Source: Thermoplasmatota archaeon (GTDB lineage Archaea > Thermoplasmatota > E2 > UBA202 > JdFR-43). Taken from it: a stretch of 64,000 nucleotides of DNA. Of this stretch, positions 29,823 to 47,135 are shown piece after piece (the first letter of the stretch is position 1; each line of letters opens with the position of its first letter). Below the pieces are notes generated by a model. That model made no database searches. It was not told the origin of the DNA and worked only from the letters and a program-made list of their open reading frames with translations. Position numbers and translations under genes: made by a program. The stretch lies in assembly GCA_029259055.1 (NCBI GenBank), contig JAPDJP010000015.1, positions 1 through 64,000 of the forward strand, written 5' to 3'.

Positions 29823-31004
29823 TTAGGTAACAACCCATCCAGGCCCAACCTGGGCGTATATTCTTGCAATATTTATTCTAACTATAATATTTTGCAAATT
29901 GAGCAAAACAAAATTTTCTCCTTCCGTTACTCTTCCATTGAGCTCTTCTTTAAGGAAATCCTTCCAAGCAGAAGGATAGAGAGTAGTAATATTTATTGTT
30001 ACATTTGTTGCATAATAAATATAGCTGGTCCAGCTTGAAAAATTCGTTCTTATAGAAAATGTTCCATAACCTGCTGCTCCTGTTTTGCCAGCAACACCAA
30101 CTATATTAATTAAAGTAAGATTAAAAGTTTGATTATTAGCTATTAGCATGGGAGGGAATAACATTGTATTTCCTCCCGCCTGACTTAAAATAACAGCTCC
30201 TCCCTCATAGATATAATCTTGGTCAACAAAATAGGCATTTTGAGAGGAATATTTTATTGTACCCAACTTGTTTGTTTGGCTAATTTGTACATTTTGAAAT
30301 CTAAGACAATTTATTATAAAAGTGCCATTTGATGAGCCATTTATTGAAATATTATATGGGGTAGGAAAGTTTTGTAATATATCTTTAAATTTATAATCCT
30401 CATTCAGTAAATTAATTCTGTAACTTATTCCATCCTTTAATGCAACAGCTATTGGTTGGCTAAAAATTATTTGAGTATTGTTTATTACAGTAAGATTAAT
30501 CTGTACAAAATTATTTACAGTGCCAACCTCTACAGAAATATTTGCACTAAGAACAGATAAATTATAAGTATCTCCCTTTTGCAAATTCTCTATATACAAT
30601 TCAAGCTCATTTACTTTTAGTATATTTGTTATTTCCCCTATATTATTTTCAAAGGAATATAATACCGCCTTCATCCCATCGCCATTTATTGATATGCTAA
30701 AATTGCTCGAATTGCTTGATAGTATTTGCAAAGAACCAAAAGCTCTAGAGGTGACAAAGTAAGGCAATTCTTTACTACCTAAAGTAATAGAATTTATCAA
30801 GGGCGACTCACTCCTTTCTATCGCCTGTAAATCGACGGAATATTTTAAGCTAGCAAATTGATTTGCAACCAAATCCATGTGTTCCGCTTCCCTTTCCTTC
30901 ATCCATCTCGGAATATAATATGTTTGAATAGTTATTAGCATGATGGCAAATAAAGTGACAATGAGAATTGCGACGATGACGCCAACCTGCCCCTTCCTAT
31001 TCAT
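29823..31004 (-). CDS. Probable separate pilin-like (class III signal/TM N-terminus) protein starting inside the fused ORF
   Basis: In-frame ATG at 31004: MNRKGQVGVIVAILIVTLFAIMLITIQTYYIPRWMKEREAEHMDLV; GAGGGG SD-like 10 nt upstream. Confidence 0.6.
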   Translation of the reverse strand: MNRKGQVGVIVAILIVTLFAIMLITIQTYYIPRWMKEREAEHMDLVANQFASLKYSVDLQAIERSESPLINSITLGSKELPYFVTSRAFGSLQILSSNSSNFSISINGDGMKAVLYSFENNIGEITNILKVNELELYIENLQKGDTYNLSVLSANISVEVGTVNNFVQINLTVINNTQIIFSQPIAVALKDGISYRINLLNEDYKFKDILQNFPTPYNISINGSSNGTFIINCLRFQNVQISQTNKLGTIKYSSQNAYFVDQDYIYEGGAVILSQAGGNTMLFPPMLIANNQTFNLTLINIVGVAGKTGAAGYGTFSIRTNFSSWTSYIYYATNVTINITTLYPSAWKDFLKEELNGRVTEGENFVLLNLQNIIVRINIARIYAQVGPGWVVT

Positions 31005-44900: not shown

Positions 44901-47135
44901 TTTTAACCAGCAATTTGCATTGTTTTGATACCAGCTGTCCAAATCAGTACCATATACCTTGCTCCCACTATGTGCTCCCGGAGGCCCAAAAGTAGGAACG
45001 CCCCACTCCCACTCATCCTTTGCTCCTCCATGTGTCCAGCCAGGATTTGTTTCAAAATCCTCATCTAATACAATTGTCCAACTACTCCCATTTGACATTA
45101 AGGAATATTTAAATAAATCATCTGATTTCTTATGTAAAGCATACAATTTTATTGGAGATTTTATTTCCAAATAAGAAACACCAATTTGTCCTGAAGAAGT
45201 ATTTTCTATTCCATACAATATACCTGCTGCATAATATGGTTTACCTCTAAAGTAAGTATAGCCTAATCTTCCTGAAAATGGTTCGTATGCTGGATTGTAA
45301 TCAATACCTCCAGATGGTTCTATAAGCCCTAAAACATCACCAAGCCATATCTCACTCGATGTTACGCCATTCCCTGGATAATTTTGCAAATCTCTAACAA
45401 CATATGTTCCACATAACAACAATGTTCCTGCTGTTACATTTCCAGTTAGATGCTGAGCTAATTCATATACATGGTTTGCATTGTCATCTCCTCCACTGCT
45501 ATCATTCCAATATTCTCCTTCCGTCATTGGCGTACTCCAGTAGTTTGGATGAGATAGCCATGGCTCATAGTTTGCATATCCTCCATCCCCTGGAAAATCA
45601 CCACAACTCCATATTACTATATCGAATTGATTAATTAAGGCATCATCTATTCTTTGTCCTCTAAGTTCTTCAGAAGTATAGGAGTCATTTGTAAAATACC
45701 AGTCATCAATTGCCTTTGCATATAAGAATTGGGACTCCGGCATAATATTCTGACACGCTTGAATAATATTATCTATTCCACTTTCCCAACCAATTGGGGT
45801 ATTATCAACAATTAGGAAGGTGGGAGGCGAGACAGCGGGCTTTGGATATACTCTAATTATTTTGCTTGTACTATTTTGTCCTCCTTCATTATCGACTACT
45901 GTTAAAGTTACTGTATAGTTGCCTGGCTCCGTAAATTTATGACTTACCGTTGAACCATTTGCAGTAAATCCGTCTCCAAAATCCCAATACCATTCAACAA
46001 TATATCCATCTTTATCAAATGAATATGGTTCTCCTCCATCAAAATTTACGGTAATTACTGTGGTTATATTCCTTGGAGAATAGGAAAAACCGGCGATTGG
46101 CAATATGTTTGGAACAACTATGGTTTTTTCGAAATATGCCTGCTCCCCATTATCGTCTGTTACAATTAATGTTACAGTATAACTTCCGCTATATTGATAG
46201 GTATGGCTTGGATTTGGAACAGAAGAGGTACTGCCGTCTCCGAAATTCCAGAAATATGAGACGATTTCACCATCTGGGTCGGTGACATTTGCATAGAAAT
46301 TAATTGTACCATCTATATTAGGATCGACATACCATTCAAAATCTCCTACAGGTGGCTTATTATATGTAACATTAACTGGTGGAGGGACATTTACTCCTAT
46401 TCCTGTTGTTGATGATGCTGTCTGCCCTTCATCATCAACAACTGTTAAGGTGACATAATATATGCCCGTCGATAAATATCTATGTAGAACATTTACTCCA
46501 TAGGCATCTGTAATTCCATCACTTTCAAAATCCCATTTATATAATACAATTCTCCCTCCGTCAGGATCGTAGCTTGAGGAAGCATCAAATATAATGATTT
46601 CTGATTTTCCTGTGCTATTAATAAATTTTGGATCAAGAGGTGTATAAGTGAATAATGCCATTGGAGGAGATATTCTGACTAAGCCCTCCTGTAAAATACC
46701 AGACATAATAATGGAGTTGCTGGCTTTGTCAACAACAACGACGCTTATCTGCCAGTTTGTTATATTTCCAAATATTTGGTCTGCATATATTTCAACATAC
46801 TCTCCTAACTCCCACCTTCCATTATCATCTCCACTAAAATGAACGTTATCTTCCTTTGGTATCCCATTTTTATCAAAATTACAGCAAAAACTTTCCATCT
46901 CTCCCTTATGAACTATTATTCTAATTTCAGAAAGCTTTATCGCCTCCCCTCCTTTATGCTGTATAACAATTTTTTCTTCTTCAATATATCCAACCAAATT
47001 TAAATCAGGAGAAGATGAAGGGTTACCAGTTGATAAAACATATATTGCGAAAGCTGAAAAAGCAATTATAGCAATAGCTAACAAAATGACTGTCCCGACT
47101 ACTTCTGATATTCCTTTATTTCCTAATCTTAACAT
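41982..47135 (-). CDS. Giant surface protein: pilin-like N-terminus, PKD domains, Rossmann-like domain, MAM/InhA-like jelly roll, long NosD-like beta-helix
   Basis: MLRLGNKGISEVVGTVILLAIAIIAFSAFAIYVLSTG (archaeal pilin-like); VDNTPIGWESGIDNIIQACQ...FDIVIWSCGDFPGDGG; DEDFETNPGWTHGGAKDEWEWGVP...YYLDDVVVKG; dozens of xxNxIxxNxI coils. Confidence 0.88.
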   Translation of the reverse strand: MLRLGNKGISEVVGTVILLAIAIIAFSAFAIYVLSTGNPSSSPDLNLVGYIEEEKIVIQHKGGEAIKLSEIRIIVHKGEMESFCCNFDKNGIPKEDNVHFSGDDNGRWELGEYVEIYADQIFGNITNWQISVVVVDKASNSIIMSGILQEGLVRISPPMALFTYTPLDPKFINSTGKSEIIIFDASSSYDPDGGRIVLYKWDFESDGITDAYGVNVLHRYLSTGIYYVTLTVVDDEGQTASSTTGIGVNVPPPVNVTYNKPPVGDFEWYVDPNIDGTINFYANVTDPDGEIVSYFWNFGDGSTSSVPNPSHTYQYSGSYTVTLIVTDDNGEQAYFEKTIVVPNILPIAGFSYSPRNITTVITVNFDGGEPYSFDKDGYIVEWYWDFGDGFTANGSTVSHKFTEPGNYTVTLTVVDNEGGQNSTSKIIRVYPKPAVSPPTFLIVDNTPIGWESGIDNIIQACQNIMPESQFLYAKAIDDWYFTNDSYTSEELRGQRIDDALINQFDIVIWSCGDFPGDGGYANYEPWLSHPNYWSTPMTEGEYWNDSSGGDDNANHVYELAQHLTGNVTAGTLLLCGTYVVRDLQNYPGNGVTSSEIWLGDVLGLIEPSGGIDYNPAYEPFSGRLGYTYFRGKPYYAAGILYGIENTSSGQIGVSYLEIKSPIKLYALHKKSDDLFKYSLMSNGSSWTIVLDEDFETNPGWTHGGAKDEWEWGVPTFGPPGAHSGSKVYGTDLDSWYQNNANCWLKTGSIDLSNFTTAVLEFYDWYYIVYGYHNTYDYVYLEISDDGGSTWQTIAVFYGDQRSWTHHTIDISAFAGKVIQIRWRLVSDWRWRSYGYYLDDVVVKGSKSSIPVGYYAIDAERGRNRSIILGFDLNADEITQESRENYLRNVLAWLAEGAGYATEVWVNNDATEEWLNQPNHFATIQEGINAVTPGGKVYVIGSSGQIYYEDVVLNKSIDLIGIDNPTIFASQTGIEVTIDWAKIEGFVIKGDLQTGILVSNSARVKIINCTISGANNGIYLLSSHNNTIQGNIIKNCTNGIFGSNSLGNKILNNDIKNNGYGLYLYRASLNTIDKNNISQNGIGLFIDSAESNIISNNAFIGNAQEGIYLMSSTNRNEIINNKIINNDRGIRLEISNTNSLINNTIAKNDLEAILIEKFSHTNTLRENKIYNNSIAISLQNSSNNDLILNDIYLNSKGISAYYSASNIIVSNTIMNNTYAINLSTSSNNNTIVSNVISGNLQAIYIYQGNKNNISSNEILYNGNGIYLAFSMLTTNGENIIANNNISFNNGTAICLYRSVGNYIKNNTILSNTKEGIKLSYLSSDNYIIKNIIRNNLKGVCIEKGNYNIIKENAISQNDYGIVLSSYSSENTILNNTIENNGYGMQFLSASTNSIINNTIKSNFQGIWLSDSHNNKIMNNTISNNTQNGIYISSSDDNDIMNNTIYSNSYDGIYLLLSGGSGNTILNNTIFWNKNGIYLDRSRSATAGNNEIIGNRIYENRENGIYLYSSSINSIQNNQIYNNSGNGIFLNKSHSNTIQLNEIRENNLHGLYLYSSNNNDIQKNNISFNLNGIYILLSSQGDSLPITDNLIWNNSNAGILINSSNSNYIMHNIIWNNSYGIFVISSSTNNEVYENNITTNDYGIYVASQDCTANKFYYNNFINNTLHNDSQAYDAGNNSWYISTSGNYWNEHISTDPYIIPPGINQDKYPLLSPRKWWL

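Follow-up and report, generated by a model that had tools for sequence, protein, structure and literature searches.

A conserved cohesin-dockerin operon of Thermoplasmatota archaea, probably encoding a cell-surface docking system

What do cohesins and dockerins do outside cellulosomes? The question is raised by a 64,000-nt stretch of DNA from a Thermoplasmatota archaeon (assembly GCA_029259055.1, contig JAPDJP010000015.1, positions 1 to 64,000; hereafter the window), in which an operon of giant surface proteins includes one ending in a dockerin and one beginning with two cohesins. Cohesin-dockerin pairs mediate non-covalent assembly in bacterial cellulosomes, and in Archaeoglobus cohesin- and dockerin-bearing genes have been noted next to each other. 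To our knowledge, the role of the archaeal modules outside cellulosomes has been open since their discovery in Archaeoglobus. A reading of the window from its letters alone (the original prediction) had proposed an extracellular assembly in which the dockerin protein docks onto the cohesin protein, with pilin-like ends anchoring or polymerising the complex. From sequence comparison and fold modelling, we consider it quite likely that the operon encodes a non-enzymatic docking system, in which a cohesin dyad anchored by a transmembrane (TM) segment would hold the dockerin protein on the cell surface, with genes 1 and 2 as co-expressed surface partners and a likely role in adhesion or the surface layer.

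The four minus-strand open reading frames (ORFs), at 41982-47135, 36202-41994, 33695-36205 and 29823-33698, encode 1717, 1930, 836 and 1291 aa and overlap successively by 13, 4 and 4 bp; on recheck, the original coordinates, lengths and overlaps were exact. Because DUF7289, the domain at the end of the fourth ORF, stands as a gene of its own in each of the 18 other genomes where it occurs, we treat this ORF as two genes (4 and 5) joined in frame.

41982..47135, minus strand: gene 1, 1717 aa; Pilin_N (aa 7-76), PKD domains, MAM-like region and long NosD right-handed beta-helix (Pfam, NCBIfam)
36202..41994, minus strand: gene 2, 1930 aa; signal peptide, NosD-like N-terminus, seven PKD stretches and conserved C-terminal domain
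33695..36205, minus strand: gene 3, 836 aa; signal peptide, FN3-like repeats, one PKD and C-terminal dockerin
33704..33871, minus strand: dockerin, gene 3 aa 779-834; two calcium loops, DANLDGKLNAMD and DVDKNGNVNQED
31005..33698, minus strand: gene 4, aa ~1-898 of the 1291-aa ORF; signal peptide, two cohesins, PKD domains, InlB-B repeat, Big_7 and C-terminal TM
33255..33641, minus strand: cohesin 1, gene 4 aa 20-148; Pfam Cohesin, order-specific hidden Markov model (HMM) 98 bits, AlphaFold2 model, Foldseek
32883..33257, minus strand: cohesin 2, gene 4 aa 148-272, abutting cohesin 1; Pfam Cohesin, order-specific HMM 106 bits, AlphaFold2 model, Foldseek
29823..31004, minus strand: gene 5, DUF7289 protein, 393 aa from an internal ATG at 31004; fused in frame to gene 4 in this genome only

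The operon proteins

Domain identity, folds and gene order were computed, and membrane topology was assigned from hydropathy. Pfam matches quoted for the window's operon proteins lie above the curated cut-offs unless stated otherwise. The assembly comprises 1.34 Mb in 37 contigs, and the relatives' genomes are draft metagenome-assembled genomes (MAGs).

The C-terminus of gene 3 matches Dockerin_1 (PF00404) at 35.4 bits (cut-off 22.9) and by sequence also matches the cellulosomal dockerins 1ohz, 2ccl and 1daq in the Protein Data Bank (PDB). Alignment showed that both loops of the duplicated EF-hand-like calcium loop plus helix, DANLDGKLNAMD and DVDKNGNVNQED, are retained; the third ORF ends in a dockerin, as had been proposed. 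The remainder of the protein matches FN3-like domains and one PKD. The only hydrophobic segment of the dockerin proteins is N-terminal, and they have no C-terminal TM by hydropathy.

The N-terminus of the 29823-33698 product contains two Cohesin (PF00963) stretches at 33 bits against a cut-off of 24.1, and each module also passes the cut-off on its own. Both profile checks named in the original prediction, for Cohesin and for Dockerin_1, were therefore positive at the curated thresholds. An AlphaFold2 model of the cohesin pair (residues 1-273), built from an alignment with 12 relatives, reached a pLDDT of 93.3 and a pTM of 0.82. Searched against the PDB with Foldseek, the model best matched ScaA, an A. 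cellulolyticus adaptor with a type II cohesin dyad (3l8q, E ~1e-14), and, for a single module, 2xdh, the non-cellulosomal cohesin from Archaeoglobus fulgidus (TM-score 0.80 over the target, 2.6 A). A sequence-profile comparison likewise ranked 2xdh first among PDB entries (E 8e-6). The jelly-roll beta-sandwich fold of cohesins is thus present, with matches to 3l8q, 2xdh, 3ul4, 2vn5 and 2vo8 and TM-scores up to 0.81 over the target. Profile and fold agree on the two cohesin-like domains first seen at the start of this ORF.

Gene 4 further matches PKD, InlB-B repeat and Big_7. The TM noted in the original prediction is present at aa 870-888 (31035-31091) and is followed by a basic tail, KLFKKR; orthologues with intact ends terminate just past these two elements, and the cohesin proteins have a C-terminal TM by hydropathy. 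Anchoring scaffoldins bear at least two cohesins on a cell-bound protein, and gene 4 combines two cohesins with a C-terminal TM, its localisation being predicted.

The archaeal pilin-like N-terminus proposed for gene 1 was borne out by Pilin_N (53 bits, cut-off 25.2) and by the archaellin/pilin N-terminal profile TIGR02537 (22.5 bits, cut-off 20). Three PKD stretches and a long NosD/beta-helix follow in Pfam, and the Pilin_N, PKD and NosD layout recurs in gene 1 of the relatives L028 and L041. Gene 2 has seven PKD stretches (Pfam), a NosD match of 133 bits that is below the NCBIfam model's own cut-off, and a conserved C-terminal domain of ~85 aa (...FDSYIVGISPPSYDFVIxPGDCVVLRVxxSGxF). Domain scan and hydropathy found neither a TM nor a dockerin in gene 2.

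Conservation, divergence and exchange of the anchor

We found orthologues of the dockerin protein, full-length or split, in 16 of the order's 22 genomes; intact ones are 824-841 aa long and 49-61% identical to that of the window. Among ~370 further sampled genomes of the phylum we found no full-length dockerin protein and only partial FN3/PKD matches. In the GTDB genome collection, the relatives are without exception uncultured Thermoplasmatota MAGs (groups JdFR-43, HyVt-387, AUK021/033/202, B78_G9, M8_bin1702, SpSt-1185 and others); no Thermoplasmatota in that collection beyond these groups has the protein, and the other matches are partial and bacterial. Several of the MAG names presumably point to hydrothermal sites.

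A cohesin-encoding gene lies directly downstream of the dockerin gene in all 16 genomes, so the gene-order check called for originally gave a positive answer. The two genes overlap by 4 bp in 10 genomes and by 10 bp in one, and are separated by 1-4 bp in five; in G019 the contig ends within the first cohesin and probably continues on another contig. On the 5′ side of the dockerin gene, where the contig permits, relatives encode a PKD protein sharing the gene 2 C-terminal domain and, before that, a Pilin_N/NosD protein. A convergent LonB gene lies downstream in the window and in L026, L028, L033 and L042. Full-length conservation of the dockerin protein (49-61% identity) and the constant gene order mark the operon as a set beyond chance.

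Two loci account for all the dockerins over the cut-off (two) and all the cohesin modules (five) of the window's genome. The second locus (L025) encodes a 3833-aa dockerin protein, then a TM-anchored two-cohesin protein and a single-cohesin protein. Its dockerin spans aa 3777-3833, the paired cohesins aa 34-164 and 166-295, and the single cohesin aa 29-163. In domain trees, 14 operon dockerins form one clade (95/91) and 28 operon cohesins another (98/88), both apart from the second locus; within the cohesin tree, modules group by position, the first in one clade and nearly all of the second in another. The operon dockerins average 59% identity among themselves and 28% to second-locus dockerins, and the cohesins of the two loci average 19%. 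When dockerin and cohesin distances were compared across 15 operons, controlling for the rest of the dockerin protein, the partial Mantel correlations were 0.43 and 0.51 (permutation p 0.002 and 0.001), suggesting a modest correlated divergence in the expected direction.

In the operon dockerins both calcium loops keep their ligands; the dockerin of G016 scores just under the Pfam cut-off. Because loop 1 and helix 1 are nearly invariant and loop 2 is variable, the alignment hints at one preferred binding face.

Two genomes depart from this plan. In G013 (L125 1065-2285) and G016 (L124 3439-4662) the orthologous cohesin protein has only ~406 aa, with a signal peptide, two cohesins, one PKD and no C-terminal TM; its C-terminus is instead a dockerin of the non-operon class, ending ...HWTG. 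As the TM is replaced by a dockerin of the other class, these sequences are most easily explained if docking can replace membrane anchoring. The TM-anchored non-operon cohesin proteins L131 and L133 of G013 are possible receivers for the swapped dockerin.

The same two genomes encode proteins of 219-1034 aa in which one cohesin leads directly into a C-terminal dockerin (L088, L089, L090, L134, L136 and L137), which could in principle form head-to-tail chains. We also noticed surface proteins that combine a single cohesin, one C-terminal TM and, in the cytoplasm, a RING-like zinc tail, at L131 2521-5067 (+), L135 3015-5576 (-) and L044 13952-16432 (-). Their tails match Prok-RING_1/zf-RING_2 just below the cut-off, and such a tie between a cohesin outside and a RING-like domain inside is unusual. 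In G012 an operon cohesin head runs into a RING-tailed protein at a PKD repeat common to both (L097, G012:C49); we discounted this as a probably chimeric contig, since the likely tail, together with DUF7289, is on G012:C11 (L139).

Interpretation and rival explanations

From these results we infer cognate binding, together with its calcium dependence and stoichiometry, co-expression and a biological role. Gene 4 would be an anchoring scaffoldin that is secreted, stays in the membrane through its C-terminal TM and presents the tandem cohesin pair on a PKD/Ig stalk. Gene 3 would be the cargo, a secreted rod of FN3-like and PKD domains without a membrane anchor of its own, whose C-terminal dockerin may dock calcium-dependently on the gene 4 cohesins and so keep the protein on the cell. 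Genes 1 and 2, encoding a pilin-anchored beta-helix/PKD protein and a secreted NosD/PKD protein, may be co-expressed surface partners. The originally proposed docking of dockerin on cohesin has indirect support from profile and fold identity, adjacency, matching clades, correlated divergence and the anchor swap. Fold, adjacency and trees rule out chance domain matches.

No catalytic glycoside hydrolase was found in the dockerin protein of the window, in the second-locus protein (most of whose 3833 aa are unmatched) or in eight dockerin proteins of relatives, and no carbohydrate-binding module (CBM) exceeded the Pfam cut-off in the scanned cohesin proteins. With no dockerin-bearing glycoside hydrolase and no CBM in these sets, a cellulosome is ruled out, in agreement with the original view that cellulosome-like degradation is not the function. 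For the same lack of a catalytic glycoside hydrolase in the scanned dockerin proteins, the function is probably adhesion or surface-layer building.

The part of the original prediction in which pilin-like ends anchor or polymerise the complex was not supported. It had placed a second pilin-like segment in the fourth ORF, and a hydrophobic helix does exist at aa 906-924. However, aa ~899-1291 are a DUF7289 protein (Pfam, 35 bits, cut-off 27), and a Pfam scan found no Pilin_N match in the 29823-33698 ORF or in the DUF7289 protein of L042. Of the order's 22 genomes, 19 have DUF7289; only in that of the window is it fused to the cohesin gene, and in the other 18 it is a separate gene. In relatives with intact ends, a DUF7289 gene of ~400 aa mostly begins 5-50 bp after the cohesin gene, and in G008 it lies away from the cohesin gene, outside the operon. 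At the window's junction (TM-KLFKKRGFNS-MNRKGQ), the internal ATG at 31004 is preceded by a GAGGGG stretch resembling a Shine-Dalgarno sequence and, immediately before it, by an out-of-frame TAATAG. A model of DUF7289 (pLDDT 85) has an N-terminal helix of 62 residues and a beta-rich head, and a fold search against solved structures gave nothing better than E 0.026.

A second fusion peculiar to this genome lies at 13741-16185 (+), where a NosD beta-helix and a C-terminal Thiamine_BP domain share one ORF of 814 aa. In all 16 other genomes having it, the Thiamine_BP domain occupies a frame of 95-171 aa. The gene 4-DUF7289 fusion is lineage-specific or a sequence error, and two such fusions within 64 kb suggest small assembly indels or lineage-specific stop losses.

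If the 1291-aa fusion were genuine, the cohesins would be displayed on a pilus-like DUF7289 subunit and the complex might polymerise. The frame is indeed open, and the topology permits it, the two TMs making a hairpin with a short basic cytoplasmic loop, but we regard this as quite improbable given the 18 separate frames, the distant gene of G008, the internal ATG with its Shine-Dalgarno-like stretch and nearby out-of-frame TAATAG, the second odd fusion with its suggestion of indels and the missing Pilin_N match. As DUF7289 is separate in relatives, the fused reading is unfit as an argument for pilus polymerisation, which we disfavour. Nor would pilin-like ends be the anchor; the C-terminal TM of the cohesin protein itself takes that part, and the second pilin-like end is encoded by a separate gene that in at least one relative is outside the operon. 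A released dockerin protein might instead bind cohesins on neighbouring cells or partner species, joining cells rather than dressing its own. Adhesin-type domains throughout the proteins fit such docking in trans, as does the proposal that cohesin/dockerin proteins act in ANME-SRB consortia (PMC9012536, PMC10553843). Still, the 4-bp overlap of the cargo and anchor genes within one operon favours docking in the producing cell, and we hold binding between cells to be rather unlikely. Very improbable, in our view, is a loss of pairing, with the cohesins and dockerin as mere inherited beta-sandwich and EF-hand domains. To go by the title of Bayer 1999 (cited in PMC9012536), the first description of archaeal pairs called them an 'enigmatic vestige', but the retained ligands in both calcium loops, the near-invariance of loop 1/helix 1, the unbroken adjacency in 16 genomes and the exchange of anchor for dockerin in G013 and G016 are hard to reconcile with decay.

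Several observations weigh against own-surface docking by the operon pair, which we nevertheless prefer. Six of the 22 genomes, some of them incomplete, have no full-length gene 3 match. Without genus g7, the partial Mantel values fall to 0.37 and 0.33, with no significance values attached. When two divergent g7 operons were added, the operon dockerins formed one clade in only 62% of bootstrap trees, and the g7 cohesins match the order-specific HMM (74-81 and 49-51 bits) but have no Pfam match. The biological role, moreover, is assigned from domain types.

More tentatively, and with slightly less than even confidence, the order may build its cell surface generally with a multi-class cohesin-dockerin toolkit. 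Each locus would supply a separate cargo-anchor pair, and in one genus a two-cohesin adaptor would clip onto other membrane-anchored cohesin proteins, some of them RING-tailed. If true, this would be a tiered, cellulosome-like archaeal architecture serving adhesion or envelope structure.

Surrounding genes and comparison with known systems

Elsewhere in the window, a giant surface ORF of 2466 aa at 3-7400 (-) runs off the end; inspected by eye, it has segments resembling PKD, CARDB and beta-helix. Very long open frames occur on neighbouring contigs as well, and giant surface proteins appear abundant in this genome. At 47231-48469 (+), in divergent orientation to the start of the operon, lies the gene for a secreted protein of 412 aa that is alpha/beta-hydrolase-like by eye only and matches no Pfam or NCBIfam family.

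On the most probable reading, the window's archaeon and most of its order clip giant non-enzymatic proteins to their own surface by cellulosome-type connectors, for a purpose other than digesting cellulose. Conserved cargo and scaffold stand side by side across the order, and a second, divergent pair in the same genome is a ready control; pairing, specificity and function are thus directly testable with a few recombinant modules. If the modules come from heat-loving archaea, as the relatives' sources suggest, they could be useful as orthogonal connectors.

We found no report of this operon in Thermoplasmatota in the open-access papers searched. Archaeal cohesin-dockerin pairs are already known, and the modules themselves are ordinary; new are the order-wide cargo-anchor operon, two divergent specificity classes in one genome and the anchor-to-dockerin swap. 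Archaeal cohesins and dockerins have been described from Archaeoglobus and from ANME archaea, the latter with scaffoldin-like proteins, and strong, specific binding has been reported for archaeal pairs (PMC9012536). Their proposed roles are attaching proteins to the cell exterior or acting in consortia (PMC9012536; PMC10553843).

The non-cellulosomal pair of Archaeoglobus fulgidus is alike in being archaeal and not cellulolytic, and its cohesin 2xdh is closest in sequence among solved structures and gives the best fold match for a single domain. Here, in contrast, a conserved four- to five-gene operon adds pilin and beta-helix proteins, the cohesin dyad sits on a TM-anchored stalk and a second divergent pair occurs in the same genome. 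ANME-2a, ANME-2c and ANME-1 are likewise archaea with scaffoldin-like proteins outside the cell, in some cases combining a dockerin with several cohesins, and a role in attaching proteins to the cell exterior has been suggested (PMC9012536). Their cargos, which include ABC-transporter binding proteins and S-layer proteins, differ between genomes (PMC9012536), whereas here, across an order, the cargo is one orthologous protein of ~835 aa with an orthologous cohesin partner next to it. Bacterial anchoring and adaptor scaffoldins, such as the ScaA dyad of A. cellulolyticus (3l8q), likewise carry tandem cohesins on a cell-bound protein, and the G013/G016 protein resembles an adaptor scaffoldin in joining cohesins of one class to a dockerin of another. 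Unlike the bacterial systems, the one described here has no glycoside hydrolase or CBM over the Pfam cut-off in the scanned proteins, and its anchor is an archaeal TM rather than an SLH domain or sortase attachment.

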